Origin: Sulfurospirillum halorespirans DSM 13726
GTDB taxonomy: Bacteria; Campylobacterota; Campylobacteria; Campylobacterales; Sulfurospirillaceae
Assembly: GCF_001723605.1 (NCBI RefSeq)
Contig: NZ_CP017111.1
Span: forward strand, 310,001 to 374,000
Direction of reading: 5' to 3'
Length of the DNA: 64,000 nt
Under the pieces are notes generated by a model. The model made no database searches. It was given only the letters and a program-made list of their open reading frames with translations, and was not told the DNA's origin. Shown piece by piece: positions 23,249 to 53,529 of the stretch. Each line of letters starts with the position of its first letter. Within the stretch, counting starts at the first letter, position 1. The translations under genes and the position numbers were made by a program.

Positions 23249-24277
23249 ATGTTTCAAAAAGAGAATCGCACCAATACGCTTAGTGGTATTTTATTGGTTG
23301 CACTTTTTGCGATGAGTGCGACCTATTTGGCGGAGTTTTCATTGTTTCAACGCCTTGGCATCAGTCCTTTGATTATTGGCATCGTTCTTGGGATGATCTA
23401 TGCCAACACACTTCGTACAAAATTTCCTAAAGAGTGGGTTTCTGGCATTCAATTTTGCACTAAAACCATTCTTCGAGTGGGCATCGTTTTATACGGTTTT
23501 CGCATCACCTTTCAAAATATCGAAGCCGTAGGTCTTGCAGGCATTGCAACGAGTGGCTTGGTGGTGAGCTCAACGTTTATTATCGGTTATTTTGTAGGAA
23601 CACGATGGCTTAAACTAGATAAAGAGACAACGATCTTAACCAGTGCTGGAAGCTCCATTTGTGGCGCTGCTGCAGTACTTGCAACGGAGCCTGTGCTGAA
23701 CGCAGAGCCTTACAAAAGTGCTATCGCGGTTTCAACTGTCGTGGTGTTTGGAACGCTTGCGATGTTTTTCTACCCTTTTGCCTACAAATTTGGGGTCATT
23801 CCTTTTACTCCTGAGCAGATGGGCATTTACATCGGAGGAACCTTGCATGAAGTTGCACACGTTGTAGCCGCAGGAAATGCCGTAGGCGTTGAAGCTTCAA
23901 AAACAGCAGTTATCGTCAAAATGATACGGGTTATGATGTTAGCTCCTTTTTTGGTGATTTTAGGATTTTGGTTGGTTCAAACATCGCACGCTGTGAGTCA
24001 AAAACAAAAGAAAAAAATCACAATTCCTTGGTTTGCGGTGTTTTTTATCGTTGTTGCAGGGTTTAACTCGTTAAATCTTGTGCCACTCAATGCAGTAGCT
24101 ACTATCAACGCGATCGATACCTTTTTACTGACGATGGCGATGAGCGCTTTGGGAATGGAGACGAGCATCGACAAATTTAAACATGTGGGCATGAAGCCGA
24201 TCTATTTGGCAAGTATTTTATTTGCATGGTTGACGGTTGGAGGTTTTTACATCGTCAAATTTTCGTTGATGTTATAA
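23249..24277 (+). CDS. YeiH-family (UPF0324) putative sulfate exporter
   Basis: 342 residues from the ATG after AAGGATA; an upstream in-frame start would overlap the operator region. About ten membrane helices, with the family segments [29 protein letters not shown] and [14 protein letters not shown]. The family is thought to move sulfur oxyanions or related anions, based on association with CysB/YeiE-type regulators. The end overlaps the convergent gpx fragment by six bases. Confidence 0.85.
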
Positions 24278-24565
24278 GTAGAGAAGAATGTCCACTTCCA
24301 AAGATTCTGGTTTGGTTGCTGGGGCAAAACGGTTGATGACGACCCCATTTTTATCGACTAAAAATTTGGTGAAATTCCATTTAATCGCTTCAATTCCCAA
24401 AAGCCCCTTTTGCGCCTCTTTGAGGTATTTAAAGAGTGGGTGAGCCTCTTCACCGTTGACATCAATTTTAGCAAACATAGGAAAAGTAACACCATAATTG
24501 AGTGAGCAAAAGCTCTGGATCTCCTCTTCGCTCAAAGGCTCTTGATTCATAAATTGATTGCACGG
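24272..24565 (-). pseudogene. gpx: Glutathione peroxidase, C-terminal 97 codons (gene split by the element)
   Basis: In frame from the CCG codon at 24565: [50 protein letters not shown] and the stop. These are the second half of a GPX fold, including the catalytic Gln of PCNQF and the Trp-Asn of WNFTKF. The first 61 codons with the catalytic Cys are at 60.53-60.71 kb on the same strand. An ATG at 24550 could start a 92-residue product lacking the peroxidatic Cys. Loss of function is nearly certain unless another copy exists. Confidence 0.93.
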
Positions 24566-24570
24566 ACTAT

Positions 24571-24731
24571 CTTTTCTAAAATCAATAAATAGTATAATTA
24601 GCCTATAACACCTATAATAACGATTGTTTGAATGATTAAATTACCCTAAATAGTATAATTAGAAATTTTGTAAAAAAGTACAATTATTTTTCATGTTTTT
24701 AATTATCACAACAATAAAAAAAGTATAATTA
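24571..24731. repeat. Left end of the element: terminal inverted repeat and four iterated sites
   Basis: CTTTTCTAAAAT at the tip, then AGTATAATTA at 24591, 24652 and 24722 and AGTACAATTA at 24678, all in the same orientation. Irregular spacing (61, 26 and 44 bp) is like recombinase or transposase binding arrays rather than a CRISPR array. Confidence 0.8.
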
Positions 24732-34209: not shown

Positions 34210-34680
34210 TTAACGCAATCTATTATTTAAAAGATTAATAAGTCCATTTGAGACTTGCGGAAAATCAAGAACTCTTCTTCCTTCATATTGTTTGGCAAAC
34301 TTTTCTGCTTTTTCTTTACTTGAAAATGCGGGTAGATCATCTCCTGAAGGGCTTGTTTTCTGGCTCCCATAGACATAAAAAGCTTCTCTTGCTGGAATTT
34401 TTTCTAATGTCTCATAGTCGGTTACATTGATACGCATATCATCATTATGTTTGACCTGATATTCTGGCCAACGAGATGGCTCAAAGTAAAATTCAAACAT
34501 TGATTTTGGGCTTGAAAAATAAATAATTTCACCGCTTCTTACTTGAATAGTGGCTGCCCATTCTGGCGTTTGGTATATTTTAATATGTCGAATAAGACAC
34601 GTTGCATCTTTAGAGATTTCCATTTTAGCTCCAAATAGGGCACCAATTGTTAAAACAATAATGAGTAGTTTTTTAACCAT
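34210..34680 (-). CDS. NosL-like protein, distal copy
   Basis: 156 residues with a cleavable signal peptide. It has a NosL-type pattern (WAATIQVRSGEIIYFSSPKS then MFEFYFEP, with DYETLEKIPAREAFYV), but only one Cys (ATCLIRH) where typical NosL has a CxxC-like metal site and it lacks the DDIGC motif of the other two paralogues here. Last gene of the nos operon, 9 bp after nosY. NosL proteins deliver copper(I) during NosZ maturation; this copy may be specialised or degenerate. Confidence 0.65.
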   Translation of the reverse strand: MVKKLLIIVLTIGALFGAKMEISKDATCLIRHIKIYQTPEWAATIQVRSGEIIYFSSPKSMFEFYFEPSRWPEYQVKHNDDMRINVTDYETLEKIPAREAFYVYGSQKTSPSGDDLPAFSSKEKAEKFAKQYEGRRVLDFPQVSNGLINLLNNRLR

Positions 34681-34689
34681 TTTTTTCTC

Positions 34690-35517
34690 CTAGACTAAAT
34701 CGGTTTTTTTAAATATAGTGAATCCAAAGAATGCAAATCCAAGCCCTAAAAGAATAGGGTATGCAATAGAAAATACAATGAATAGTGAAAGCCGAATATT
34801 ATCTAAAATGTAAAAAGCAACCGGACCCATTACCGTTAATTCTGGATCAAAGAGGCTAATAGCGGCTACCCTAAAAATTTCCATTGGATTGATAAGTGAG
34901 ATAGCAATGATAATTTCTTCACTCAAGCGTTGCTGCATCATAAGGCTAATTAAAGCAATATCGATAAAAGCGAGTAAAACAATCCAAACAAAAAATGAAA
35001 GACCTAATGCAACTTCTGAAGATTTGACAATAGATGATATTAAAAAAGAGATACCTAAGAAAGCGGCACTAAGAGCAAAGAGTAATCCTGAATAAAGTAA
35101 AAAAATATTCCAAGGGATATTGGCACCTTTGATAGTTCCAATCATTAATGCAAGAATCATCGCAAAGAAAACAGGTAAAAAGACCGTTGTAAATCTTCCA
35201 ATAATTTTCCCCCAGTAATATTGTGGTAAAGAAATAGGAAATGAAAGCATATACTCCAATATATGATTGTCTCTATCTCCTGAAATGGAGCGAACGGTGG
35301 TAATAAGAATAAAAATAGGAAGAATAACAATCGTAACTTGTATATACATCAGTAGCAATCGACTAAGCCCACTGAATCCCATCACTTGTGATTCTGTAAC
35401 ACCCGCTATGAAAAAGAGAGCAATTAGACCTCCAAAAACTAACGTATAGACAATAAACCAACGTGCTCTTACTGATTCTTTAATATCGAGAAAAGCAATT
35501 AATAATAAATTTTCCAT
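34690..35517 (-). CDS. nosY: NosY, ABC permease for NosZ maturation
   Basis: 275 residues, six membrane helices, with LRSISGDRDNHILEYMLS-like segment (VRSISGDRDNHILEYMLSF) typical of NosY/ABC-2 permeases. Together with NosF and NosD it forms the ABC complex that helps assemble the CuZ centre. It is separated from nosF by about 4 kb of other genes, whereas in Wolinella nosF and nosY are adjacent. Confidence 0.85.
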   Translation of the reverse strand: MENLLLIAFLDIKESVRARWFIVYTLVFGGLIALFFIAGVTESQVMGFSGLSRLLLMYIQVTIVILPIFILITTVRSISGDRDNHILEYMLSFPISLPQYYWGKIIGRFTTVFLPVFFAMILALMIGTIKGANIPWNIFLLYSGLLFALSAAFLGISFLISSIVKSSEVALGLSFFVWIVLLAFIDIALISLMMQQRLSEEIIIAISLINPMEIFRVAAISLFDPELTVMGPVAFYILDNIRLSLFIVFSIAYPILLGLGFAFFGFTIFKKTDLV

Positions 35518-35518
35518 C

Positions 35519-36025
35519 TTAACTTCCTAGTAGTTTTTTTCGTATTTTTGGATCGCTCATGTTTTCGCCTCTGAGCATGCGAAGACGCATCTCCGTAAAG
35601 TCTATCATACCCTCTTTTGGATTTTCGTAGGCGGCAAAACCATAGAGCATCGGTGTCTCTTCGGTGAACGTGTACGACGCTTTGAGCGCATCGATGTAGC
35701 GATTGATCTCAGTACTAAAGACCCACAGCGTAATGGTTTCGGGGTCAATCTTCTGCTCTTTGAGCCACAAAATAGCACACCCAATGTCATCAAAAAAGTG
35801 CGTTTTAAGATCGTTCGTGATGATCTGCGCTGTGTGTTTTTTACCCACAAGGTACATATTGCAAAGCGCGCAGGTAACGGTATTGTCCTTAAATTCGAGA
35901 GGCATTTTCTCTTTATTGACGATTTGCGTGGGCAGTTGATGCTTTACATGTAAAAACCAAAAGAGACCACCCAGCGCAAGAAGTGGGAAAAGTACGAGAA
36001 TAAAAACTCCTATTTTTTTCTTCAT
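35519..36025 (-). CDS. NosL-like membrane-anchored protein, middle copy
   Basis: 168 residues. An N-terminal anchor helix is followed by TCALCNMYLVGKKHTAQI and FFDDIGCAILWLKEQ, matching NosL (C-x2-C-x-M metal site and DDIGC). It begins with an ATGA overlap to the Cys-rich membrane protein gene and ends one base before nosY. It carries an exact TTTACATGTAAA palindrome (35943), unlike the nos core genes around it. Likely copper handling or a related partner of the neighbouring ABC system. Confidence 0.78.
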   Translation of the reverse strand: MKKKIGVFILVLFPLLALGGLFWFLHVKHQLPTQIVNKEKMPLEFKDNTVTCALCNMYLVGKKHTAQIITNDLKTHFFDDIGCAILWLKEQKIDPETITLWVFSTEINRYIDALKASYTFTEETPMLYGFAAYENPKEGMIDFTEMRLRMLRGENMSDPKIRKKLLGS

Positions 36026-36984
36026 AACCAGACTCCATTGCGTAGAAAATAGACGAGCGGATAGGCGGAAATGCTAAGCAGATAGAGCGTATTAAATGCC
36101 AAAGAAGAACGCATAAATCGAGGCTGAGTTCTTCGTGAAAGAAGCGCTAGGACACCTCCTCCCATTCCCAAAAACGTACCTGCAAACACGAAAGCATACA
36201 GCGCGTACCCGACGTAATAATAATCTTTTTGCAAGAGACAAAACGGACAACGGTGTGTCGGAAGCTCGTACACATAGGTGCTAAAAAAGATGATCAACGA
36301 GATGATCGCAAAAATGAGGAAAAGTGCATTAGAGACAATCAAAAGTAGGCGGTTTTTAAGTCCATACGCCAAGAGTGTGATGCCAAAAGAGCCGTAAAAG
36401 AGCCCAACCCAAACACGCTCATCGACCACAAAAAGCAGTGACATGTACGAATCACTTGCCGCAGAGAAGAGCGTTCCGCAACAGCTGACGATTTTGCTGA
36501 TGTTAAGGCTGGAAAAAAACGAGACTTCAAGCGCAATTTCGGCAAAAAGAGGCAGTGCAAACAGTAAAAACAGCACAAATTTGAGTCGTGTAAAGGGGAG
36601 TTTTTCATCAGTAACATCGGCATAATGCAGGAGCAACCAAAAGCCAAAAAGGTAGAGATTGAGCAGTTTAAACAGCGTCAAATAAAGCCCAAAATCAACC
36701 GAATTAACCACCCCTGCGGCACACATCGCTCCTGCGATGATGGAAGAGAGTTTGTCGCACGTGTAGATAAAAAAGGCAAACAGCGGCAGTTTGAGCATAA
36801 AAATGTACTTGATGATGATGGCACCCAAATAGCTCTGTTTGGAAAGGGTGTATTGAAAGGGTGTCGTTGCTTTGGCGTTCCAGTGAAATGCGATGCGAAA
36901 CGCCACAACCCACGCGATGAGCCCAAAAAAGCAAAAGATGGCATCCAGCGTTAAAAGCGCGATAATTTCAGGTGTCAAACTCAT
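36022..36984 (-). CDS. Polytopic membrane protein with conserved Cys pairs
   Basis: 320 residues, eight or so membrane helices. Cysteines occur in pairs or clusters near membrane edges: SCCGTLFS in the middle and HRCPFCLLQKDYYYVGY late, plus MCAAGVVNS. CPFCLLQ is reminiscent of disulfide-exchange membrane proteins such as DsbB, or of a copper site, but no family is recognised. It is translationally coupled to both a NosL-like gene and a MacB-type ABC ATPase, so a role in thiol or copper delivery is a reasonable inference. Confidence 0.6.
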   Translation of the reverse strand: MSLTPEIIALLTLDAIFCFFGLIAWVVAFRIAFHWNAKATTPFQYTLSKQSYLGAIIIKYIFMLKLPLFAFFIYTCDKLSSIIAGAMCAAGVVNSVDFGLYLTLFKLLNLYLFGFWLLLHYADVTDEKLPFTRLKFVLFLLFALPLFAEIALEVSFFSSLNISKIVSCCGTLFSAASDSYMSLLFVVDERVWVGLFYGSFGITLLAYGLKNRLLLIVSNALFLIFAIISLIIFFSTYVYELPTHRCPFCLLQKDYYYVGYALYAFVFAGTFLGMGGGVLALLSRRTQPRFMRSSLAFNTLYLLSISAYPLVYFLRNGVWL

Positions 36985-37646
36985 ACCAGTTCACCGTTTT
37001 TGATCTCGATGATACGATCGACAAACCCAAGCTCAAAAAAGAGCGGATCGTGCGTTGCGATGAGTTGCGTAATGCCTTGGCGTTTAAGTCTTTCAAACTG
37101 CGCTATCAGCTCACGCGAGAGATTTTCATCGAGATTGGCGGTCGGCTCATCGGCTAAAATAAGCAGAGGGTTATTAACCAAAGCACGCGCAATGGCGACG
37201 CGTTGCTGCTCGCCTCCTGAGAGGCGGTTTACGCGCATCTGCGCTTTATGCGCTATGCCACACTGTTCCATCGATGTTTTGGCTTTTTCATCCAAAAGAG
37301 AGAGCGCAAGGTTTTCAGGAATCAGGGGCGTTATCACATTTTCCAAAGCAGTCAGATGGGGAATCAAATGAAATTTCTGAAAGATAAACCCGATCTTTTG
37401 GCGACGCAGTTTGGCGCTAAACTGTTCAGGCAATTTTGAAATTTCCCTGCCATCCACGCTCACTTCGCCACTGTTGGGTTGCGCAAGTCCTGCGATTAAA
37501 GAAAGCAGCGTACTCTTTCCACTGCCGCTATTTCCTTTGAGCACCACACACTCGCCACGCTTTACATGTAAAGAGATTTGAGTGAGGGCAAATACGCTCT
37601 CATCGCCTTGCATAAAGCTTTTACACACATCATGGAGCTGTATCAT
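36981..37646 (-). CDS. ABC transporter ATPase, LolD/MacB type
   Basis: 221 residues from the ATG that overlaps the permease stop. Walker A GNSGSGKST, signature LSGGEQQRVAIARAL, Walker B LLILADEPTANLD, H-loop ATHD. It belongs to the MacB/LolD/FtsE class that works with FtsX-type permeases in mechanotransmission or export. Pairs with the next upstream gene. Confidence 0.87.
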   Translation of the reverse strand: MIQLHDVCKSFMQGDESVFALTQISLHVKRGECVVLKGNSGSGKSTLLSLIAGLAQPNSGEVSVDGREISKLPEQFSAKLRRQKIGFIFQKFHLIPHLTALENVITPLIPENLALSLLDEKAKTSMEQCGIAHKAQMRVNRLSGGEQQRVAIARALVNNPLLILADEPTANLDENLSRELIAQFERLKRQGITQLIATHDPLFFELGFVDRIIEIKNGELV

Positions 37647-38818
37647 CGCATCACCTCGTCCGCATCTAAACTTGAAGCGCGCCATGAGGGAATCAAGGTT
37701 GCGGCGATGTAAATGGGCACACTGAGTAAAAAAAGCAGTACCACCATGGAAAGATTGAAACTAAAGGGAAGCAAAAAGGTGGGTTTGAGCTCCGAATAGC
37801 CCATGAAAAGGTTTCGCAAGAGCGGTGCTTGCAGTGCATACACGTAAAAAAGAGCGCACGAGATACTCAGTAAAAAAGCGCCCAACGAGAGGATAAAACT
37901 CTCATAAAACTTCTCTTTCACAATGTCATCACTGCTCCAACCAATCGCCTTTAAAATGCCGATTTCCCGCTTCTCTTCGGAGCTTAGCCCGCTGGTTTTA
38001 TCGTAAATGATGATGAAAAAGGCAAACGCACAGACGCTAAAAAGGGAGAGAAAAAAGCCACTTTTATAATCAAAAATATTTTGGTAACTCACCCTGATGT
38101 CATCTTGCGTGATGGCGCGCATATCAGGATAGCGCGCGGTGATTTTCTGCACAATGGTCGCAATCTCTTTGACATTTGCCACTTTGACCACAATGTCAGT
38201 CGCTTTGCTCTCCTCCATACCAAAAATGGCGTAGGCAAGTTTTTTAGGAAGGATGATCAGATCGTTTGACTCCAAAGCAAGATCGGAATGAAAAACCCCA
38301 GCAATCGGCACTCTTTTCCACTGACCATCGGGCGTAATAAAGTTAAAAAAGTCGGTGTAGTAGTTCTCTGCTAAGATTTTTTTCACCCCTTCGCCTACGA
38401 TCATGCTCTCTTTATTGGCGAGCAGTTTCATATCGAAATGTTGGGTCAAAAGCGTAAGCGTTGACGAGTACTGCTCCTCATACGCATCGATGCCCACGAC
38501 CGAAAAGTTCACACCTGCGGGTTTAAAATAGTAGTAACCCCACACACGTGGTGTCACTGCACTGATGCCTTCAATGTCTAAAAGTGCCTCGGCGCGCGCA
38601 ATCGGAACATCACTCTGTTTGCCAGCGATAAAACGCTGCAAGGTGATCTGCGGCAAGGTTTTCAGCGTCGAATTTAGCTCCAACTTGATCGCATCGGCGA
38701 TCATCAAAACCGAAGCGAGCAGAAAAATCAGCAGGCTTAAAATCAAAAAGATAAAAAAATTCTTGCTAAAACGTCGCATCAAAGAGCGAATCGCGTAATC
38801 CAGCAGTAAAAAATTCAT
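37643..38818 (-). CDS. FtsX/MacB-type ABC permease
   Basis: 391 residues from the ATG immediately after the previous stop; the longer in-frame start overlaps that gene. One N-terminal helix, a large periplasmic MacB_PCD-like domain (VVGIDAYEEQY, SMIVGEGVKKIL), then three C-terminal helices with the FtsX segment SSEEKREIGILKAIGWSSDDIVKEKFYES. Such pairs usually extract or export molecules across the periplasmic face; here it is embedded in the nos operon between nosL and nosY. Confidence 0.83.
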   Translation of the reverse strand: MNFLLLDYAIRSLMRRFSKNFFIFLILSLLIFLLASVLMIADAIKLELNSTLKTLPQITLQRFIAGKQSDVPIARAEALLDIEGISAVTPRVWGYYYFKPAGVNFSVVGIDAYEEQYSSTLTLLTQHFDMKLLANKESMIVGEGVKKILAENYYTDFFNFITPDGQWKRVPIAGVFHSDLALESNDLIILPKKLAYAIFGMEESKATDIVVKVANVKEIATIVQKITARYPDMRAITQDDIRVSYQNIFDYKSGFFLSLFSVCAFAFFIIIYDKTSGLSSEEKREIGILKAIGWSSDDIVKEKFYESFILSLGAFLLSISCALFYVYALQAPLLRNLFMGYSELKPTFLLPFSFNLSMVVLLFLLSVPIYIAATLIPSWRASSLDADEVMR

Positions 38819-38819
38819 A

Positions 38820-39143
38820 TTAAAAATCACGTTCGATCCTTGAAGGCTGAGAATTGGGCGCATACTGATAGACAAAAGTGGAGGGAAAATACTCTAAAAG
38901 CTCGGGCGATTCATTAAAATAGGAGAACACATCACTGAGACTGCGGTGGCGAACATAGTGTGCTTCACCCACAAGCGCAAGATCGGGAAGCCCCACAAAT
39001 GCGCTCAATGCTTCTTTACATGTAAGCTTTTCTTGAGTCAGTGCACGCGTGGATGAGAAGTAAAAGAGTTGTGCCATTATCGTGACACAAAGCGTCATAA
39101 AGAGTGCAAAAAACGTGATTCGTGTCTTTAGCTTTATCATCAT
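38820..39143 (-). CDS. Small membrane-anchored protein of unknown function
   Basis: 107 residues: one N-terminal helix (ITFFALFMTLCVTIMAQLFYF) and a periplasmic segment with KLTCKEALSAFVGLPDLALV. Coupled by ATGA overlap to the upstream nosL and followed within two bases by the FtsX-type permease. It could be an accessory or adaptor subunit of that ABC system. Contains one exact TTACATGTAA (39016). Confidence 0.6.
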   Translation of the reverse strand: MMIKLKTRITFFALFMTLCVTIMAQLFYFSSTRALTQEKLTCKEALSAFVGLPDLALVGEAHYVRHRSLSDVFSYFNESPELLEYFPSTFVYQYAPNSQPSRIERDF

Positions 39144-39583
39144 TTCCCTATTTTAATAACGCGTCTTGTGACTTCTTCAAAATTAACCACTTCTTGATCG
39201 GTTGCAATATCCTCTTTTTTTACATGTGCGCCAAAACCATATGCCATAGGAGTAATATTGTCGACATCATAAAATGCTTTTCGTGCATCTATCCATTCTC
39301 CAGTTTTAGCATCATTCACCCATATAACCGCTTTTTCTTTCCATCCAATACTGTTTTCTTTAAACCATAAAATAACACAACCAATATCATCAAAAAAATA
39401 CTTTTTCCCATTATCAGGATTAATAACTTGTGCTGAAAATTTGCGATCACTGAGAACCATTTTGCATCGTTCGCACATATCACGATCCCAGTGAACTTTT
39501 TTTGGACCCAAATCAACCTTATTGTCACATCCACAAACAAAAAATGTCATTAAAAGAAGAAAAAATGTTTTAAAGGGGTTCAT
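39140..39583 (-). CDS. nosL: NosL copper-chaperone lipoprotein
   Basis: 147 residues with a lipoprotein signal (FFVCGC). The metal site DMCERCKM and FFDDIGCVILWFKE match the canonical NosL family. Members bind Cu(I) and support CuZ assembly in NosZ. It overlaps nosF by 14 bp, which places it in the core nos operon. Confidence 0.87.
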   Translation of the reverse strand: MNPFKTFFLLLMTFFVCGCDNKVDLGPKKVHWDRDMCERCKMVLSDRKFSAQVINPDNGKKYFFDDIGCVILWFKENSIGWKEKAVIWVNDAKTGEWIDARKAFYDVDNITPMAYGFGAHVKKEDIATDQEVVNFEEVTRRVIKIGK

Positions 39584-40208
39584 CGGTTAGTACCTTTCCT
39601 AAATCCATATAGATTTGTCGATTGACGAGTTCTTTCATCTCATCAAGTCGGTGCGTGACAAACAGTGCAATTTTAGAACGTGTTTCATTTTTTAAGAGGC
39701 GATGAAAGTTGTCTCGCGCTTTTGGATCAAGATTGGCGGTTGGTTCATCATAAATAATAATATCGCTTTGACGTGCCAAACTGATTGCTATCAGCATTTT
39801 TTGCTTCATCCCACCACTGAGTTTAAAAAATGATTTATTTAAATTTGGCTCTAGATCAAACTCCATCTCTTTCGCAAAATGCAGGATGGCATTTTTTTCT
39901 ATTTTTGTGCTTTTGCAGGCATAACTTATCAACTCGTCCAAATTTAATTTAATGGGTGGAGGAAGTTGAGGAACAAAACTAATGTTTTGTAAAACACGTA
40001 TTCTCTCCTGAATCGGATTAAGCCCATTGACAAGTACCGTGCCACTATTAGGATGATAATAACCTAATATAAGCCTGATTAAAGTGGTTTTCCCCGCACC
40101 ATTGGGCCCCATAAGAGCAATACAATCATCCTTTTTGAATGTCAATGATAAATTATCTAACGAAAGAGCATTCCCGAATTTTTTGCTCACATTGTGAATT
40201 TCTATCAT
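39570..40208 (-). CDS. nosF: NosF, ABC ATPase for NosZ maturation
   Basis: 212 residues, somewhat shorter than most NosF. Walker A GPNGAGKTT, signature LSGGMKQKM, Walker B IIIYDEPTANLD and the H-loop VTHR (Arg rather than Asp next). It energises the NosDFY complex. Overlaps nosH by four bases. Confidence 0.9.
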   Translation of the reverse strand: MIEIHNVSKKFGNALSLDNLSLTFKKDDCIALMGPNGAGKTTLIRLILGYYHPNSGTVLVNGLNPIQERIRVLQNISFVPQLPPPIKLNLDELISYACKSTKIEKNAILHFAKEMEFDLEPNLNKSFFKLSGGMKQKMLIAISLARQSDIIIYDEPTANLDPKARDNFHRLLKNETRSKIALFVTHRLDEMKELVNRQIYMDLGKVLTDEPL

Positions 40209-41113
40209 AGGAGATTCTTTAATCTAAAGGTATAATGTAATGCATCGGTGTGGCAAACATCAATACAACGTCCGCACAGTGTACAATCGCCACTGGCAAC
40301 AATCTCTTTTGTTATGCCAAGCTCTTTATGTTGCTTATCATACTTTGGTTTTGTTATTTCCAAAACGTGATTTTCAAAGCACACGTCATGACAAACCATA
40401 CAATGATCGCAGTTATCGTTCCATTCTATCCTTGAAGCACTCACAACCCCAACAAAACCGTATGTCGTTCCAATAGGACAGATATATTTACACCATGCGC
40501 GTCTTGCGAAAAAAACTTCAATTAAAAAGACAGTAATAACCCACGCTAAAGCAGCACTCCAGCCATAGGCTATAAAGCGACTTAAAATACCAACGACATT
40601 AAAGAGCTCAAAGACTAAGTAGCCGCTGGTAAAAGCAAGAATTAAAAAGATTCCCCAGAAAATATACTTTATACGATGATCAAAGCTTCTTTCTTTAATG
40701 ATATTTTTTTGCACCAAGATACTATGTAATTTTTCACCTATTTCGCTAAGAAGACCATAGGGGCATACCCAAGAACAATAAGTCCTCCCTCCAATAAGCA
40801 AATAAACAATTAAAATACTCACGGTTCCAATAATCATATTGATTGGCATATGATACGTTGCTGCAAAAACTTCTAATGTCGTGAACACATCAATAAGATG
40901 AAACCCTAAAAAACGTGATCCATTGAGCGTTCCTTCCAATATTTGTATATCAATTTTAAACGATAAAAAAAATAAAAGATGAAGACTAATAATAACCAGC
41001 CATCTGATAGCTCGGATACTTAATCTCTTCTTTCCCTCTTTTGTTTCATCAAAAAATGTAGAAAAAAATGATGTTTTGGCAATCGTTTTTCGTTCTTCGT
41101 ATTTACTACTCAC
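40205..41113 (-). CDS. nosH: NosH, membrane iron-sulfur quinol dehydrogenase
   Basis: 302 residues, NapH-like. Five membrane helices, two CxxxCP motifs (CSWVCPYG and CKYICPIG) and two C-terminal [4Fe-4S] clusters (CDHCMVCHDVC and CTLCGRCIDVC). With NosG it can feed electrons from menaquinol to the periplasmic cytochromes and NosZ. The gene order follows the Wolinella nos operon. Confidence 0.9.
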   Translation of the reverse strand: MSSKYEERKTIAKTSFFSTFFDETKEGKKRLSIRAIRWLVIISLHLLFFLSFKIDIQILEGTLNGSRFLGFHLIDVFTTLEVFAATYHMPINMIIGTVSILIVYLLIGGRTYCSWVCPYGLLSEIGEKLHSILVQKNIIKERSFDHRIKYIFWGIFLILAFTSGYLVFELFNVVGILSRFIAYGWSAALAWVITVFLIEVFFARRAWCKYICPIGTTYGFVGVVSASRIEWNDNCDHCMVCHDVCFENHVLEITKPKYDKQHKELGITKEIVASGDCTLCGRCIDVCHTDALHYTFRLKNLL

Positions 41114-41127
41114 AGGATATCCTTTGG

Positions 41128-41613
41128 TTATTTTGCTGCTTCAGCTCTTGCTTTAAATTCACCAATTTCAGTAGAAAGTTCTTTAAAGTCATTGTCATTA
41201 AGATTTAAAATAGCACTTTTCATAATAGGGTTGTCTCTTTTCCCACTTTTAAATTCAAGTAACTTGGTATAAATTTGTTCAGCACTTTGTCCAAACAGAG
41301 GAAGTCCAACAGCACCTTCACCTGTAACACCATGGCACGATGCACATTTGCGTTTGTAGTTATCACTTACTTTGAACGTTGAAACATTACCCGCTTTGTC
41401 TTTCATAGCTTTAATTTTCTCCGCTTCAATATCTCTATCGCTTTTTTCCATAGGGGCTTGTATTTTTGGTTGAGATCCAGTATTTTGAGTTTTTGACACA
41501 TTCTCAATAATTTTAGCCGCATTTCCACCTTGAAATGCAGTACCTTGGCTGATTGTATAAACCATAGCTCCGAAAATCACAAATGTGATGATTCCTACGA
41601 TAATATTTTTCAT
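41128..41613 (-). CDS. nosC2: NosC2, monohaem cytochrome c
   Basis: 161 residues with an N-terminal membrane anchor or signal (FVIFGAMVYTISQGTAF) and one haem site CASCHG. Probable axial Met is in the C-terminal part (NPIMKSAIL). It likely transfers electrons to cNosZ. Overlaps nosC1 by four bases. Confidence 0.85.
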   Translation of the reverse strand: MKNIIVGIITFVIFGAMVYTISQGTAFQGGNAAKIIENVSKTQNTGSQPKIQAPMEKSDRDIEAEKIKAMKDKAGNVSTFKVSDNYKRKCASCHGVTGEGAVGLPLFGQSAEQIYTKLLEFKSGKRDNPIMKSAILNLNDNDFKELSTEIGEFKARAEAAK

Positions 41614-42197
41614 TTTTGTCTCTCTTTTAATTTTTTAACTTCTTGATTAAAGGTATAGATTTCATTGGATAAAGCTTTGATCTCTTTATCATCCATCTGG
41701 GTAACAAGCTCTTTCATTAAAACATTTTTCTTTTCTCCCGTTTTGTATTGGGAAATCGTTTTAAAAATGTATTCGCTATCTTTACTTAAAAGCGATGGAC
41801 CTATAATTCCATTTGCATAGTCATCATGACAAGCAGAGCATTTAACTATAAAATTTTTACTTAATTTACTGACTAAGATGCTTACTTCAACATGTTCATA
41901 AGGACTTCTCACTTTGATGGCAGCGCCAAGAGGTGTATAGTTTTTTTCTTCATCTAGTTGTGCGTTTGCTTTTGTCTCTTGATGATAGTCATAATAAAAG
42001 ACTTTACTCTCATTACTATCATCTTTTTTAACTTGGACTTTCTGTTCTTTGAAATTGTCATTCTCGACAACTTCAATTTTTCCAGCCTGTTGCGAGATAT
42101 TTTTTTCAACAGATTGAATGCTCTTCTCTTCTTTTTTATCAGAGCATGCATTGAAAGTAAGTAAAATCAATAAACAAAGAAAAAAATTCTTTTTCAT
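41610..42197 (-). CDS. nosC1: NosC1, monohaem cytochrome c lipoprotein
   Basis: 195 residues with a lipoprotein signal (LLTFNACSDKK), a charged linker, and a haem site CSACHDD. Like NosC2 it is a candidate electron donor to NosZ. Overlaps nosG by four bases. Confidence 0.83.
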   Translation of the reverse strand: MKKNFFLCLLILLTFNACSDKKEEKSIQSVEKNISQQAGKIEVVENDNFKEQKVQVKKDDSNESKVFYYDYHQETKANAQLDEEKNYTPLGAAIKVRSPYEHVEVSILVSKLSKNFIVKCSACHDDYANGIIGPSLLSKDSEYIFKTISQYKTGEKKNVLMKELVTQMDDKEIKALSNEIYTFNQEVKKLKERQK

Positions 42198-42928
42198 TTT
42201 TGATCCTTGACATAGTATGTTTCATACGTCTCTCTGGGCTTAATAACAATAGAAGGAGACGATGCCGGGCAAAGTTCCTCACATACTCCACATCCAACAC
42301 ACCCTTTGTTAATTTGTGGTTTTTTAATTCCATCTTCTGTTACGATCATCTCAATAGCATTTAAAGGATTTGGAAGAGGGCACATATCAGCACAGATCGT
42401 ACAGTTTTTTCCTTCATACGTGGAAAGTTTTTTTAGGACATCTTCTTCGAGGCTTCTAGTATGAGGATGAGCATAAATTCGTTCTATTTGATTTTTAGGT
42501 ACGATTGTTCTTGTTATGGCTAAACATGTCTCTGGAAATGCAAAAACGGCTATTCCCATCTTCACATCTTCAGGTTTTTCGGCATGGTGATCCAGTGCTC
42601 CTGTGGGACAGGCTAGAACACATGGGAGCGCACCACAGAGGTAACACCCTCGCTCTCTTGCTTCAATATAAGGAGTTCCCATACCATAGCCTTTTGCAAA
42701 ATCTGCTAGCTTGATAGAGTGGTATGGACACACTTGTAAACATTGTCCACATTTAATACAAAGTGAGAGAAATCTATCTTCATCAACTGCTCCAGGAGGG
42801 CGTAATCGTGTCTCTTTTGCTTTAAGATAAGGAGCACCAACAACACCAGCTCCGAGTGCTAAACCTAAAATGCCAAGCGTAGAATAGTGGATAAATTCTC
42901 TTCTTTCTTGTTTTACATGTAATGCCAT
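42194..42928 (-). CDS. nosG: NosG, periplasmic polyferredoxin (NapG-like)
   Basis: 244 residues. A Tat-type start (ERREFIHYS) and hydrophobic region are followed by four [4Fe-4S] clusters: CIKCGQCLQVC, CYLCGALPCVLAC, CTICADMC and CVGCGVCEELC. It partners with NosH. One exact TTACATGTAA overlaps the first codons (42913), the rightmost exact copy before the 20-kb gap. Confidence 0.9.
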   Translation of the reverse strand: MALHVKQERREFIHYSTLGILGLALGAGVVGAPYLKAKETRLRPPGAVDEDRFLSLCIKCGQCLQVCPYHSIKLADFAKGYGMGTPYIEARERGCYLCGALPCVLACPTGALDHHAEKPEDVKMGIAVFAFPETCLAITRTIVPKNQIERIYAHPHTRSLEEDVLKKLSTYEGKNCTICADMCPLPNPLNAIEMIVTEDGIKKPQINKGCVGCGVCEELCPASSPSIVIKPRETYETYYVKDQK

Positions 42929-42939
42929 CTTCTCTCCAA

Positions 42940-44238
42940 TTAATTTGTAAACTTAGGGGTTTTGTCTTCAAGTAAGAAAATTGGTTCTGAGAATGGAGCC
43001 AACTTCGACAAGAAATTTAATAACGTCATGACCGGCGAACCGTAAAAGAATTTTACAGAGGGGTTGTACATCCATAATTTATCAGCATACTGATAAACAC
43101 GATAAGGGTTATCCCCAACCCCATCCATATTCGTATCAAAACCTTCATAATTGTCCCAATAGTTTTGTGTAAATTCATTTTTGAAATTATCGCTACTGCG
43201 TGAGTCATTGACAACATCTTCAATATTGCCTTTGACGACATTGTTCTCAAAGATGCCATTTTCACACAAAGAATGAAAATGCAGCGCTTCTGAATTGAAG
43301 AGGAATTTATTATTCCGAATCCAAAGATGTGCATCTGGCTCAAAAGGAGAACGATCAATGTACATTCCTTGGGCACTATAAACAACTGTATTATTCTCAA
43401 TGGTAAAATTTGAAGCATCTTTAAGACCAATACCGATACCTGTGGCTCCTTGAGAATTTTTTATAACATTCCCCGTTGCAATCGTGTCATTTGAGTACAT
43501 AAAGAAGATACCAACCGAATTGTATTGATAGATATTATTATGGACAAAATTTTTACCTGCATACATGAAATGGAGGGAATACCTTCCATATTCAGCTAAA
43601 TTTTCTTCAATGGTATTACCATGTGAATACCAAACAACCATATCACGTGAGCGATAGAGATGGTTTTTTTGAATCATATTGTCATTGCTGTACCACAATC
43701 TAATCCCATCACCTCGAAGTCCAAGTTCATAATTTTTTGAGGTGATATAATTGTTCTTGATAAGCGAATGGTTGACAATTTCCATATTAATGCCTAAAAG
43801 GGAATCTAAGATTCTGCATTGACTCACTTCATTTTGAACAAGTGCTCCTGTTGATGTGTCTCCACTCATATTAATAGCAGCATCAAGTATGTCTGATCTT
43901 TCTCCACTATTTTGAATGGTTAAGTTTTTAAGCGTAACGTAAGAGCTTTTAACAGTTATGACACTTCCAACACCTAGTCCATCTAAGATAACACCTTCTT
44001 CCACACCGATAATGCTAATAGGCTTTGTAATGACAACATTACCTTCATAAATGCCCGCTTTAAGCTTGATAATTGAGCCTTCTTTCGCATTATCGATGGT
44101 ATCTTGAATGGAACTTCTGCGTGTTTCTTTAATAGGGCCTGTATAAACTGCGGCTTCTTCCCTAGTTTCATATATAAAGTCGCTCTTCGCATAGAGTAAG
44201 GACAATGCTAAAAGACTAAGACAAAGAAGTTGTTTCAT
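42940..44238 (-). CDS. nosD: NosD, periplasmic beta-helix maturation protein
   Basis: 432 residues with a signal peptide (LCLSLLALSLLYA) and a right-handed parallel beta-helix of CASH-type repeats (IQNSGER, NYITSKNYE, LYRSRDMVVWYS, NVVKGNIED). NosD works with NosFY to deliver copper or sulfur for CuZ. Length and position after nosB fit Wolinella. Confidence 0.9.
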   Translation of the reverse strand: MKQLLCLSLLALSLLYAKSDFIYETREEAAVYTGPIKETRRSSIQDTIDNAKEGSIIKLKAGIYEGNVVITKPISIIGVEEGVILDGLGVGSVITVKSSYVTLKNLTIQNSGERSDILDAAINMSGDTSTGALVQNEVSQCRILDSLLGINMEIVNHSLIKNNYITSKNYELGLRGDGIRLWYSNDNMIQKNHLYRSRDMVVWYSHGNTIEENLAEYGRYSLHFMYAGKNFVHNNIYQYNSVGIFFMYSNDTIATGNVIKNSQGATGIGIGLKDASNFTIENNTVVYSAQGMYIDRSPFEPDAHLWIRNNKFLFNSEALHFHSLCENGIFENNVVKGNIEDVVNDSRSSDNFKNEFTQNYWDNYEGFDTNMDGVGDNPYRVYQYADKLWMYNPSVKFFYGSPVMTLLNFLSKLAPFSEPIFLLEDKTPKFTN

Positions 44239-44243
44239 AATAA

Positions 44244-45029
44244 TTATCTTACGTCACTCTCTTTAGTTGCTTTAACTCTTGATAAAAGAGCAAGCAAAGA
44301 AAAGATCCCAATAAAAACTAAACAATAAAATCCAATAGATGGATAAGAATGCGTTGTAAATTGCGCTACTTTCCCATCACCAAAAACAGTAGGCATAAAA
44401 GGCTTTATTTTAAAAGCACCCCAATCATGAAGGTTGTGTCCAAACCAATAGAGCCAATAAGAATAATCCGCTATAAATAGCAATGGTAAAGACGTTGGAA
44501 TGAGCATAAGGTAATTTAAGACTTTGTGGTTATAAGCAATAAAATAAACCATGATTAAACTCAAAAACAATAAGGCATAAATGCCAATTTCACGCTCTAA
44601 AATACCGCCTCTCCACATTGGATCCATTCCAATATAGTGGTTAATAGTATTCATCTCATGCACTTCACCACTAAATCCATCAAAGTGAAAAAAGACAGGG
44701 ATACCTTCTGGGAATGCTTCTTTTGGATAATTTGGAGCTTCAAGTGAACACGACCAAATGGGTAATGAAGCTACACCAATTTCAGAAGAGCTAGTAATCA
44801 TTTTGTCTAAATTATTATGCGCGTCTTTAGGTGTCGTTGTACTTTTATAACGACCTTGATTGTATATTCCCCAAACCATCTTTTGGAAAGATGAAATCTC
44901 CTCTTGTTGACCAGCGTCAATTTTATTCAATACTCCATGAAAACTTATCATTGGGAAGGTAAATGACAGTGTCATGATTAAAAATGCAATACCTGCAAAT
45001 ATTTTTGATTTTATTAAACTTTGATTCAT
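44244..45029 (-). CDS. nosB: NosB, membrane protein of clade II nos operons
   Basis: 261 residues: one N-terminal membrane helix, a periplasmic region of ~120 residues, and four C-terminal helices with WLYWFGHNLHDWGAFKIKPF. NosB is found only with c-type NosZ operons; its job is not established. It follows nosZ, separated by a strong hairpin. Confidence 0.85.
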   Translation of the reverse strand: MNQSLIKSKIFAGIAFLIMTLSFTFPMISFHGVLNKIDAGQQEEISSFQKMVWGIYNQGRYKSTTTPKDAHNNLDKMITSSSEIGVASLPIWSCSLEAPNYPKEAFPEGIPVFFHFDGFSGEVHEMNTINHYIGMDPMWRGGILEREIGIYALLFLSLIMVYFIAYNHKVLNYLMLIPTSLPLLFIADYSYWLYWFGHNLHDWGAFKIKPFMPTVFGDGKVAQFTTHSYPSIGFYCLVFIGIFSLLALLSRVKATKESDVR

Positions 45030-45123
45030 CTTTTCTCCTTAATATCCTTAGCTAAAAACTAAAGTTAAATTTTTAGATAAAAATAGTGTATCTCGAATTC
45101 TTGTTTTTAACATTGACACATGT

Positions 45124-45154
45124 CAACCCACAAAGACTAAATCTTTGTGGGTTG
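45124..45154 (-). terminator. Hairpin between nosZ and nosB
   Basis: A 13-bp stem CAACCCACAAAGA/TCTTTGTGGGTTG with a 5-base loop, seven bases past the nosZ stop. It could act as a partial terminator or an mRNA-stabilising hairpin that makes nosZ transcript more abundant than the accessory genes. Confidence 0.65.
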
Positions 45155-45160
45155 ATGTTC

Positions 45161-47764
45161 TTAAAATAAATTGGCGTTGCTGTCAACCCATTTAAGATAT
45201 TCGATGATATTTTTCACCTCTTCATCTTTCATGTTTTGATCAGGCATTCTTAAGTTAAAGTAATCAATCATCGCTTTAACATAAGGGTCTTCAAACTTCT
45301 CTTTTGGGTTTTTGATAAAATCAGCTACCCATTTTGCACCATTTTCATGACGTCCCAATACACCTGTAAGATCAGGACCTGAACTTACTTTTCCAATAAC
45401 ATGACAACCAGAACATCCACCTTCATTAAAGGCGACTTCTCCTCTTGCTGCTTCTGGAGACTGCTTGGTTGCAACAAATTTAACAAGTAAGTCTTTAGCA
45501 CGAATTCCAACATCTGCTGTTTTAACCATGTATTGCCAGATCATATTTTCAAATAAGACAGCTTTTTCAAAATCACCTTCTTTGATAGCGGCATCTGAGA
45601 GTTTTTTCTGCTCAGGAATTTTGCCGTATTGATCAAGTGCGTCGGTTACAAGATTTTTAACAACCTCGTGTTTCTCGAAATGATTTTCTTTGAGGAATTT
45701 CACAACACTTTGAATAACATCATCTGTTGCTTTATTGACCGCAACAGTTTTGTCGTATTCCGCGTTAAGTTGCTCTTTGCTCATTGTTGCCATTTTGAGT
45801 TTTTGTGCGCTTTCATATTTTTTATTAGGGTCTTTAACCATTAAATAACCCATCATTTCAAGGTGAAGCGCTGAACAGAATTCTGTACAGTAATAAGGGA
45901 ATACACCTTCTAAATCAGCTTTGAACTTCACAGTGGCTACTTTACCAGGCTCTACTGATGCATGGACATTATAATTATCCACAGTAAAACCATGTGTTTC
46001 ATCTTCTGCTCGTTCAAGGTTTGTCATATAGATAGTAACATTGTCACCTTTGTTAACCGTAATGCGCTCTGGATTGATATGTGAACGTACTAGTGTTGCA
46101 TATACTTTGACATCATTGCCTTTACGTTCTATTCTCTCTTGTCCTGCAAGTGTTTTACCCTCACTGATTTGCTCTGTTCTAGAATTGGTGCCCATCTCAT
46201 AGCGTACTTTTGGATGAAGCTTACTAGCACGGATGGTAACAACATCATGTGGCTCACCTAGAGGAATAGGCATATCAACAAGAAGATCCATTTTATTACC
46301 ACTAATATCAATCAATTGATGATTCTGTGGATGTAGAGGTCCTACATTATTAAATCTATCAATGGATAATTTATTGAGTGCAATAATATACTCACCTTGA
46401 GGATCAGCAGTATTACTCTCCATTCCAGCCAAGTGACCAATGTTATAGTGAACATTGACACGATCTAACACTTTCAATGTTTTGAAATTCCACTTAACAA
46501 CTTGACTATCAACATATAATGAAGTGTAGATTTCTCCATCAATTGGCGAATACTGATTATGCAATGGTCCAAGTCCTAATTCAAGCTGGCCATGTAATGC
46601 TTTTTTCATATCAAGAATAGGAATCCCGTAAGGATCTGTACCAGCATAATCTTTATTTTTGATCAATGTTTGAATTTTTGAAAAACTATAAACTGAAGCA
46701 TGTGTATCTAATTTTCCACATACAACGATGTATTCACCTGTTGGGTCAACATCCACACCGTGTGGAGATTTAGGTTCAGGAATTAAAAACAATGCATCAT
46801 TTTTAACAGCAATATCCATAGGAACGACTCTATGCCCATTGATCACTTTAACATTTTTTGGATCTTTTGCAAGTTCTGCAAGCTTTTTCCAATTGTACAC
46901 ATGAAGGTAGTCAGTGTCGTTTCTACTCATACCCGCTTCGTTAGGTGGCATGCCTACTTCAATTCCACCTGTGTACATTTCTGAGTTAAATGAGTTTGTA
47001 AATCCCCATCCATGACTTACTTTTTTACCAGCATCACTTAAGTCTTGCATGTAGGGAGGAAGTTCTATAGTATAAGAGTCTTTTTCTTGGATTCTACCAT
47101 GCTTAGGATCAAACTTCCACATAGTTACACCACCACGATAACTCTCTTTATAGTCTTCAATTGGGTGATAATTATTGTCAAATGGAGCAGCATATTGTGC
47201 GGCTTCAATAATCCATTCAGAATCTTGTGTAAAAAAAGATCCACCATGTTCAGATTTAAAAACTGGATTGACAACAATTTGTTTTGTCTCAAAGTCACTT
47301 AAATCAATAACTGCAATTCTTGGATTAGCTTTGTCATTGATAATCAACCATTTACCATCGGCCTTAGCATCTGTTTCGGAAAGGGCTGGGTGGTGCGTAT
47401 CACCCCAAGTAATATCTTTACCTCGAATTTTGCCTTGATCAAGAACTTTTTTGCTCTCTTCATCAAAACCATATCCTTGCCATGGTTCAGGTGTAAATAC
47501 AGCAATGTATTTTAGTAACCTCATAGAAGGAACACCATATACTAATACCTGCCCAGACTGCCCACCTGAACTAAATGCAAGGTATTTATCATGTACACCC
47601 GTTGGATTATAAGTCTTTGCAGCACGAACAACATCCGCCTCGCTAAGACCTCTTGCTTTCATCACTTTATCTAAAGCACCATCTCCACCAGCAGCAATAG
47701 ATGCTGTGGTGAGTAAAGTACTAGAGAGCACCAGCGATGAAAGAAGTTTGAAACCTCTTTCCAT
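45161..47764 (-). CDS. nosZ: Nitrous oxide reductase, clade II with C-terminal cytochrome c
   Basis: 867 residues from the ATG after AAAGGAGG (an in-frame ATG 21 bp upstream precedes the ribosome site). A Sec-type signal (LLSSLVLSSTLLTTASIAA) marks it as clade II. The seven-bladed propeller includes the CuZ ligand pair in WGDTHHP and later His residues (PLHPQNHQ, GEPHDVV). The CuA site is YCTEFCSALHLEMMGY. A C-terminal haem domain carries GCSGCHVIG. It reduces N2O to N2 in the periplasm. First gene of the nos operon. Confidence 0.96.
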   Translation of the reverse strand: MERGFKLLSSLVLSSTLLTTASIAAGGDGALDKVMKARGLSEADVVRAAKTYNPTGVHDKYLAFSSGGQSGQVLVYGVPSMRLLKYIAVFTPEPWQGYGFDEESKKVLDQGKIRGKDITWGDTHHPALSETDAKADGKWLIINDKANPRIAVIDLSDFETKQIVVNPVFKSEHGGSFFTQDSEWIIEAAQYAAPFDNNYHPIEDYKESYRGGVTMWKFDPKHGRIQEKDSYTIELPPYMQDLSDAGKKVSHGWGFTNSFNSEMYTGGIEVGMPPNEAGMSRNDTDYLHVYNWKKLAELAKDPKNVKVINGHRVVPMDIAVKNDALFLIPEPKSPHGVDVDPTGEYIVVCGKLDTHASVYSFSKIQTLIKNKDYAGTDPYGIPILDMKKALHGQLELGLGPLHNQYSPIDGEIYTSLYVDSQVVKWNFKTLKVLDRVNVHYNIGHLAGMESNTADPQGEYIIALNKLSIDRFNNVGPLHPQNHQLIDISGNKMDLLVDMPIPLGEPHDVVTIRASKLHPKVRYEMGTNSRTEQISEGKTLAGQERIERKGNDVKVYATLVRSHINPERITVNKGDNVTIYMTNLERAEDETHGFTVDNYNVHASVEPGKVATVKFKADLEGVFPYYCTEFCSALHLEMMGYLMVKDPNKKYESAQKLKMATMSKEQLNAEYDKTVAVNKATDDVIQSVVKFLKENHFEKHEVVKNLVTDALDQYGKIPEQKKLSDAAIKEGDFEKAVLFENMIWQYMVKTADVGIRAKDLLVKFVATKQSPEAARGEVAFNEGGCSGCHVIGKVSSGPDLTGVLGRHENGAKWVADFIKNPKEKFEDPYVKAMIDYFNLRMPDQNMKDEEVKNIIEYLKWVDSNANLF

Positions 47765-47847
47765 AATTTCCTCCTTTAAAAACATAAGATTTATGCTAAA
47801 TGAACTGTACTAAAATTGATATGGCCAGTATCCTCTTTATTCTTTCT

Positions 47848-47865
47848 ATTTAACATTAATTTAAC
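47848..47865 (-). promoter_or_regulatory. Candidate response-regulator site upstream of nosZ
   Basis: Two direct repeats GTTAAAT spaced 11 bp (one helical turn) about 85-100 bp before the nosZ start, the spacing favoured by OmpR/PhoB-family regulators such as the one encoded nearby. Confidence 0.3.
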
Positions 47866-47961
47866 ACTTTAAGTTGACTATGGAATTCTATAATAGAGTC
47901 AGTTTCTTTTGAGTCGCTGAAATTTTACATATTAAAAACTTGCGGTAAAAGAGAGGCTTTT

Positions 47962-49608
47962 TTACATATTATCGCAGCAAGAAGGCAGTAATATACTGAA
48001 TTGTGCACCATTATTAATGTTTTTAGCAGTTATTATTCCATGAAATTGATTTTCTATAATTAATTTTGACATATAAAGCCCAATACCTGTTGATAGTTTA
48101 TTCTTATTACTATGAAAAGGCTTGAATATATCATTAATCAAAGGTGTTTGAATGCCTCCAGCGTTATCTGCTATTTTTAAAACAACAAATTTATCTGAGT
48201 CTTCAAGTGTTATATGAATAAAGGGATCTTCTATCTCAGAAATTTTAATAATATCAATCGTGTTTTGTAGAATTGATAAAATAACTTGTGATAAGCTGTT
48301 GGAATTACCAAAAATCTTCATTTTTGAGTCAAATTTTTGAATAAGCTTGATTTGATAGAGCTTTAGCGAAGATTCAAGGAGCAGAAGTGTTTGATTGATT
48401 GATATGGTAGGATTAAAAATAGTGTTATCAACATGTTTATAAAAATTTTCAAAATTTGTGATAGTTTCTGACATAAATTGAATAATTTCTTCATTTTTTG
48501 CAGTCTCCTCCATAAGTTCTGGATCTGTGAGTTTTTTCTTAATATACATACAATTAAAACTAAGTTGCGCAAGTGGTTGTCTCCATTGATGTGCAATAAT
48601 GGCAATCATCTCTCCCAGAGCTGCAAATTTAGCTTGTTGGATCATAATTTTATCTTTAAGAATTTCTTTGGAAATATCCTGCATACTGATGATGAGCATA
48701 TTCTTTTCTTCTCCACTAATACCAAACGAAATTCGAATAGGAAATGTGTGCCCTTTTTTATTGATAGCTTTAATCTCTCGCACTTCTTCTTTATTTTCAA
48801 TCTCTAAAATTTTTTTAAAATTTAAAATACCTTCTTGTTCTACGGGAAGCGACTCTTTCAAAATTATTTTTTGGAAGAAAGGTTCTCCGATAATTTCTTC
48901 TTTTGTATAGCCAAATATCTTTTCTGCCATATGGTTGTATGTTTGGATCTTAAGTGTTGCATCAAGCGTTACAATAGCATTGGTATTAGACTCAATAATT
49001 GTGTTGGCATAATCATGTTGTTTAATAAGTTCTTTTGTCACTTCTGTAATTCTTTTTGTAGCAGGTTTAAAAATAAATATCGCTTCAAAAAAAAGTGTTA
49101 CAAGGGTGAAAATGAAAATAAAAAATTCAACATTTTTTAGTTTTATAGTATTGGATTCAGTTGTTGCAACATAGATTGAAGTGGCAAGATCCAAATTGTC
49201 TAAAAGTTTTTGAGAGTTTTGCAATATATACGTTAGACTTCTTCCATCTCTATTTTCTTCAAAGCGTTTTGCATGGTATAAATATGTTCTAACATTTTTA
49301 TCTAAGAAAAAAGGTTCCTCAAAATAAATTTTTTTCAATTCTTTTGACATAGGAAAAGAAATAAGTAAATTATGAGATTCTTCCATGAGGATAATATTGG
49401 TTCGTAAATTTTCTGTTTTATAATAGATGGCATACAGAGCAATTTGTTGAGAAAGCATTCCTTGTTTACTACTGATATTAATTATTTTTCCATCATTAGA
49501 TTGGCTACTAATAAGGTGATTTAGATTGTAATACGCTAAAATAGAAAGCAGTGCTATGATAGAAAGTGCAGTAATATATCGTTTCGTGAAGCTGATAGTT
49601 TCAATCAT
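47962..49608 (-). CDS. PAS-containing sensor histidine kinase with PilJ-type sensor domain
   Basis: 548 residues. Helix 1 (ALSIIALLSILAYY), a periplasmic four-helix domain of the PilJ type (NISSKQGMLSQQIALYAIYY), helix 2 (FFIFIFTLVTLFFEAIFIF), a PAS domain (IIESNTNAIVTLDATLKIQT), then a HisKA-like AHQWRQPLAQLSF and HATPase (DNAGGI, STGIGLYMSK). PilJ-type sensors are found in nitrate/nitrite kinases NarX-like. Divergent from a response regulator and next to nosZ, so nos control by nitrogen oxides is plausible. Confidence 0.85.
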   Translation of the reverse strand: MIETISFTKRYITALSIIALLSILAYYNLNHLISSQSNDGKIINISSKQGMLSQQIALYAIYYKTENLRTNIILMEESHNLLISFPMSKELKKIYFEEPFFLDKNVRTYLYHAKRFEENRDGRSLTYILQNSQKLLDNLDLATSIYVATTESNTIKLKNVEFFIFIFTLVTLFFEAIFIFKPATKRITEVTKELIKQHDYANTIIESNTNAIVTLDATLKIQTYNHMAEKIFGYTKEEIIGEPFFQKIILKESLPVEQEGILNFKKILEIENKEEVREIKAINKKGHTFPIRISFGISGEEKNMLIISMQDISKEILKDKIMIQQAKFAALGEMIAIIAHQWRQPLAQLSFNCMYIKKKLTDPELMEETAKNEEIIQFMSETITNFENFYKHVDNTIFNPTISINQTLLLLESSLKLYQIKLIQKFDSKMKIFGNSNSLSQVILSILQNTIDIIKISEIEDPFIHITLEDSDKFVVLKIADNAGGIQTPLINDIFKPFHSNKNKLSTGIGLYMSKLIIENQFHGIITAKNINNGAQFSILLPSCCDNM

Positions 49609-50812: not shown

Positions 50813-50813
50813 A

Positions 50814-53516: not shown

Positions 53517-53529
53517 ATGGAGGGTATAT

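Follow-up and report, generated by a model that had tools for sequence, protein, structure and literature searches.

A probable 36-kb tyrosine-recombinase transposon of the SE/Tn554/GInt superfamily, with conserved arrays of sites at its ends, in gpx of Sulfurospirillum halorespirans

The window analysed here, a stretch of 64,000 nucleotides from the complete 3.03-Mb genome of Sulfurospirillum halorespirans DSM 13726, holds the glutathione peroxidase gene gpx in two widely separated pieces, with short inverted sequences and iterated sites beside each break. What are these two places, and how are they related? We conclude that they are likely to mark where a single 36-kb transposon, a tyrosine-recombinase element of the SE/Tn554/GInt superfamily, begins and ends within gpx, and we propose for it an array-guided route through a circle. 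How SE, GInt and Tn554-type elements choose strand and end is unsolved, and a countable array offers a direct handle on the problem.

The left-hand ORF corresponds to the C-terminal portion of gpx, and the N-terminal part continues at 60533. Uninterrupted gpx in eight congeners reads, on the plus strand, GCACGGA^AA(G/T/A)CC, i.e. GGA^AA[G/T/A]CCC or GGA^AAACC (^ marks the junction). Because these eight show the empty site, the junctions can be placed between 24566 and 24567 and between 60532 and 60533, for a net gain of 35,966 bp at gpx. The bases next to the operon-proximal right end, AAGCCC, are native; on the distal left side, CTAT separates gpx from the inverted repeat. The first-pass annotation had counted five extra bases, ACTAT, at the left junction. 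CTAT is indeed foreign, but alignment with the uninterrupted congener genes shows the A to be native gpx. The features of the two ends are:

24272..24566, minus strand: 3' part of the interrupted gpx (Pfam GSHPx 3.1e-14; empty-site alignment)
24567..24570: CTAT, foreign bases of the distal junction, read as coupling sequence (a 6-bp spacer would make them CTATCT)
24571..24590, plus strand: distal tip, CTTTTCTAAAAT and the 8 bp up to the first site
24591..24600, plus strand: distal array site 1 (AGTATAATTA), 24 bp from the junction
24652..24661, plus strand: distal array site 2, 85 bp from the junction
24677..24686, plus strand: distal array site 3 (AGTACAATTA), 110 bp from the junction
24722..24731, plus strand: distal array site 4, 155 bp from the junction
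60456..60465, minus strand: proximal array site 2, 67 bp from the junction
60502..60511, minus strand: proximal array site 1, 21 bp from the junction
60512..60532, minus strand: proximal tip, CTTTTCTAAAAT and the 9 bp up to the first site
60533..60715, minus strand: 5' part of gpx; the AAGCCC beside the tip is native target sequence

The element disrupts gpx, in contrast to SE-6283, which supplies a replacement for its target gene bcp; a search with the C-terminal half of gpx found no second copy in the host genome. To the right of the element, and outside it, lies a ParE-type toxin gene (61048-61299), and a small ORF upstream of it resembles its antitoxin.

The inverted tips are exact, as had been described: CTTTTCTAAAAT occurs at 24571-24582 (+) and 60521-60532 (-), and no further exact copy is found elsewhere in the window. 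By itself this tip is statistically unremarkable, with 1.7 chance occurrences of a 12-mer with at most one mismatch expected in the AT-rich window; its meaning comes from its location. The iterated sites had also been described correctly, with exact AGTATAATTA at 24591, 24652 and 24722 (+) and at 60456-60465 and 60502-60511 (-), as had the distances of 20 and 21 bp from tip to first site. The third left site is present too, but it has one mismatch and starts one base to the left of the 24678 given for it. All six AGTAYAATTA sites face inward, four in the outer 170 bp on the left and two in the outer 80 bp on the right, and the 35.6-kb interior (71 kb counting both strands) has none. In 20,000 dinucleotide Markov resamplings of the ends, six sites were never reached, the maximum being two. 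Just inside the distal array lie two near-identical 19-bp direct repeats, CTTATAAATGTGATATTTA, 62 bp apart (24844-24862 and 24906-24924).

Could these sites simply be promoter -10 boxes, spaced as they are for transcribing the recombinase operon and the cargo rather than for recombination? They contain TATAAT or TACAAT, the former matching the -10 hexamer perfectly, and the start codon of o724, one of the core genes listed below, follows about 10 bp after proximal site 2. Nevertheless, we think this quite improbable: consensus scans gave no -35/-10 pair using any of the six sites, promoter-like sites were no commoner than in shuffles, the invariant motif exceeds the hexamer on both sides, every site at either end faces inward, and the distal sites keep their spacing where no gene is conserved. 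A dual role, in promoter and array, is possible for proximal site 2.

Other copies of the element bear directly on its ends. In two other congeners (G146 and G271) an element end interrupts gpx at precisely the base seen here, with different host flanks. The G146 element, 14.76 kb long (L028:2509-17264), has CTAA in place of CTAT and the same distal array. Both its ends are present; the recombinase operon is absent and o724 is reduced to its first 102 codons, and the element may have been mobilised in trans or deleted in place. Its distal-end DNA is 93% identical to that of the window and the host gpx genes are about 80% identical, which implies that the elements moved separately from their hosts; the two insertions look independent. 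In G271 the proximal end sits at the same gpx base beside a full core (43-51% protein identity), and because the 3' part of gpx is missing from that genome, its left end is eroded. Outside the genus, the four-gene core interrupts mutS (G309), gspE (G275), hsdM (G447), a small CPXCG-type gene (G466), a secretin gene (G433) and comM (G294), and it also occurs on Aliarcobacter plasmids (intact in part) and in a Sulfurimonas MAG; except for gpx, mutS, gspE and two plasmid genes, targets were named from translations. The core is conserved in seven further elements, with relatives in Arcobacteraceae and other Campylobacterota. A scan of the genome collection with the TRa alignment gave three loci, and no relative turned up in the phage collection.

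Wherever boundaries could be identified, they fall at the repeats: proximal ones in G146, G271, G309, G275, G447, G466 and G433, and distal ones in G146, G309, G275, G317 and plasmid pM830MA; the sole exception is G294, the most divergent member, which has no clear AGTAYAATTA array. The view that the inverted termini and iterated sites are element ends is thus borne out, both by the sequence itself and by the relatives. The first proximal site lies at 21 bp in the window, G146 (where it reads CGTATAATTA), G271, G309, G447, G466 and G433, the junctions of the last four being placed by this spacing itself, within an ambiguity of 1-3 bases; in G275 it lies at 20 bp from the corrected gspE junction. 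A second proximal site is found at 64-68 bp in five elements, and G275 has one clear proximal site only. Distal sites lie at 24/85/110/155 bp in the window, G146, pM830 and G317 (one more in the last two under the corrected junction), at 24/85/110/156 in G275 (again one more with the corrected gspE junction) and at 23/85/109/154 in G309. This spacing is kept across recombinases that are 33-46% identical among the window, G275 and G309 lineages, and across between-site DNA that is near the AT-rich background (44% identity for window-G275, 37% for window-G309); the sites themselves are 85-89% identical. Of the 397 genomes of the class, four (G000, G146, G275 and G317) contain the three-site geometry exactly, every time at an element end, and none contains a reversed control pattern; two matches with two mismatches, in G066 and G069, we took to be chance. 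Together, a proximal site at about 21 bp and distal sites at about 24, 85, 110 and 155 bp from the junction provide a rule for delimiting such islands.

These comparisons also dispose of the idea that we are looking at short imperfect repeats of AT-rich intergenic DNA at a chance rearrangement junction. The lack of significance of the 12-bp tip on its own speaks for it, but empty sites, recurrent insertion at the same base and conserved geometry in independent elements refute it, and we give it practically no credence.

The extra bases at the left junction had been likened to the coupling sequence of Tn554-type insertion. The polarity does match that published for SE and Tn554, where native target bases lie at the recombinase-gene end and foreign bases at the far end (PMC10214605); the likeness fails for the one base of the five that is native gpx. 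A native proximal flank and a foreign distal flank are seen in every readable case, polarity having been read in gpx and gspE. One subfamily has three copies in which the distal DNA is common down to TTTATAAAC and then diverges, to CTATTT before gspE (G275), CTATTT (pM830) and CAACAA (pAFAEC, G317); each of these flanks was compared against known native target sequence. Orthologues place the gspE junction at CAACAA^TGCC and rule out a reading as CAACA^TTGCC. The distal CAACAA of pAFAEC is identical to the 6 bp of native gspE that adjoin the proximal end in G275. Under the published SE rule (PMC10214605), the bases flanking the donor's operon end travel with the circle and finish up beside the opposite end of the element in its new site, and the match is what this rule predicts if the pAFAEC copy derived from a gspE insertion. 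The flanks thus suggest that the 6 bp next to a donor's proximal end turn up again beside the distal end of the new copy, as in SE and Tn554, with the proviso that this is a single, suggestive case: CAACAA has a frequency of about 5e-4, which is the chance of such a match for one flank, and over the known flanks the chance is a few per thousand. The perfect 12-bp inverted identity in the window implies a spacer of 4 bp and the gspE/pAFAEC comparison fits 6, the usual length in this superfamily; the range to be allowed is 4 to 6 bp.

The proximal end carries four core genes, in the order o724-TRb-o160-TRa:

54568..55944, minus strand: TRa, 458 aa, catalytic tyrosine recombinase, IntA-like (Pfam Phage_integrase 1.3e-8)
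55941..56423, minus strand: o160, helical, with a long C-terminal coiled coil (model pLDDT 84)
56389..58302, minus strand: TRb, 637 aa, large catalytic tyrosine recombinase, IntB-like (Pfam Phage_integrase 1.6e-8)
58271..60445, minus strand: o724, tyrosine-recombinase-like, Arg I replaced by an invariant Asn (N393)

The catalytic sets of TRa (R220, H340, R343, H383, Y392) and TRb (R305, H411, R414, H439, Y448) are invariant in alignments with five and eight relatives, respectively, and the two proteins match SE IntA and IntB with hhalign values of 90% and 84%. R522, H545, Y554 and N393 of o724 are likewise invariant in eight relatives, and the protein is an inactive-looking recombinase; hhalign gives 98% to a 784-aa 'site-specific integrase' of pWTJH6. 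It has no Pfam match, and its AlphaFold model (pLDDT about 45 in the catalytic region) found no significant match in a PDB fold search, XerH ranking third with E 2.4. In o160, which has weak coiled-coil matches only, the predicted C-terminal coiled coil spans 58 residues; it is the positional counterpart of Srap, TnpC and GinD. Searches for the named trio or Tn554 models of NCBIfam returned generic Xer matches only.

Target specificity, tyrosine recombinases and a coupling-like segment would equally fit a Tn916-type reaction, and gpx sites are mostly intact in the genus, as they might be if this were an ordinary ICE- or IME-type element that excises cleanly by paired strand exchange and restores gpx. 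We regard this as unlikely. The cargo ORFs scanned, of which a few small ones lack any family match, include no recognised relaxase or conjugation gene, and no known excisionase or transfer gene was recognised among the genes scanned. Two catalytic recombinases with two further conserved proteins make up the SE/GInt/Tn554 pattern, and all readable cases have one polarity, whereas heteroduplex resolution of the Tn916 kind should yield both.

Within the SE/GInt/Tn554 superfamily the element resembles each group in part. The SE papers (PMC9345347, PMC10214605) describe an ordinary and a large catalytic tyrosine recombinase, a recombinase-fold partner and a small coiled-coil protein, together with a few selected target genes and flanks that are native on the operon side and carried in on the other; the target of SE-6283, bcp, is likewise a peroxidase-type gene. 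By contrast, the SE operon is intA-tfp-intB-srap next to motif C, of which the order here is a permutation, o724 keeps its Tyr, and SEs were reported from Gammaproteobacteria only. Our SE reference was p24845-Ct2, whose SE-type operon was recognised as such from its gene order, the pSEA1 stretch examined containing no SE; o724 and o160 showed no similarity to its Tfp and Srap (hhalign <1%, for single sequences rather than an SE alignment). SE Srap matches DUF6262 (4.7e-5), whereas o160 was not recognised as TnpC/DUF6262, though it is of similar size and has a coiled coil. The passages of the SE papers searched here make no mention of a subterminal array, and a quick 9-mer check saw no subterminal repeats in the p24845 SE or the Pseudomonas aeruginosa elements, whose true ends are undefined.

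GInts share a four-gene operon (ginABCD) at one end, a large cargo, an AT-rich far end and three recombinase-like proteins, of which GinC lacks the first Arg only, as o724 does with N393; their cuts are staggered by 6-7 nt (PMC5385486). Compared by description rather than by Gin sequences, their order is ginA-ginB-ginC-ginD, and their authors found no common far-end feature, in contrast to the strict array here (PMC5385486). Tn554 resembles the element in its short and long tyrosine recombinases, small protein (tnpABC) and site specificity, and in a 6-bp footprint with the same polarity (PMC10214605), but its three-gene core, tnpA-tnpB-tnpC, has no o724 counterpart and a different order. Operons of the same gene order as ours (large inactive-looking recombinase, large recombinase, small protein or proteins, ordinary recombinase) are found on the P. 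aeruginosa plasmids pWTJH6 (L117:2912-9995) and pF068 (L118:1808-7715). That of pWTJH6 is homologous (hhalign 98% for o724, 99% for TRb, 97% for TRa); even so, the sequences are far apart, pWTJH6 has extra ORFs, and the ends are undefined. By the defining features of those groups, then, the element is not an SE, GInt or Tn554, yet it appears to work like them. We rate it as a new variant of the superfamily, which its family extends to Campylobacterota.

The mechanism that we propose builds on the observed termini, target, geometry, catalytic residues and flank polarity. The outer 20-odd bp at each end would be the strand-exchange site, and the inward AGTAYAATTA array would give the element's own proteins accessory or arm-type sites to bind, as the conserved geometry suggests and as the first-pass annotation had supposed in calling the sites recombinase-binding arrays. 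Lambda-type integrases have arm sites of this general layout, several short direct repeats inside the core site and unequal at the two ends; the likeness is one of layout. The unequal arrays, two sites proximal and four distal, could build a nucleoprotein complex that distinguishes the ends. TRa and TRb would then join the ends into a circle, with o724 and o160 as architectural subunits, and the circle would keep a few flanking bases of the proximal end only. Copying-out of this kind would be strand-biased and leave no empty donor site; on insertion, the target's own bases would stay beside the proximal end and the carried-in bases would land at the distal end. More tentatively, as a proposal that we find plausible without favouring it, the elements may form a separate SE-like class in Campylobacterota, with relatives on Pseudomonas plasmids, in which a fixed 4+2 array sets the flank-donating end and so causes the SE strand bias, and the member described here may have captured nos.

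The cargo includes a complete gene set for the removal of nitrous oxide, a greenhouse gas:

34210..53924: clade II nos (nitrous oxide reductase) cluster, two-component regulator and cytochrome b/c1-type genes

The cluster comprises nosZ, nosD, nosG/H-like ferredoxins, ABC genes and nosL, with matches to NosZ (TIGR04246, 4.7e-264), NosD, NapG/NapH-like proteins and NosL; regulators, a cytochrome b/c1-type gene set, NnrS and a TonB-dependent uptake system accompany it. NosZ is present in 12 of 24 genomes of the genus, and the host's only nos copy is the one inside the element. In the five congeners inspected, nos lies at other chromosomal sites (82-89% identical DNA in four of the five), and neither paired AGTAYAATWA arrays nor core genes lie beside it. 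Because these copies sit elsewhere without arrays or core genes, the element probably captured its cluster within the genus, from a chromosome of the congener type. If so, it could carry N2O respiration between species, and the superfamily would be linked to the spread of nitrous oxide reduction.

Between cargo and TRa, 53980-54584 is 74-78% like G379 931725-932232, where no core gene was found and which is possibly a remnant of a related element. A phosphoesterase-like gene (26240-26854) is 96% identical to L028:7344-7952 inside the G146 element, so the cargo is partly common to the two elements and otherwise different. The G146 cargo includes a split candidate defence gene (PDC-M11A), an IS3-type transposase, chemoreceptors and diguanylate cyclases.
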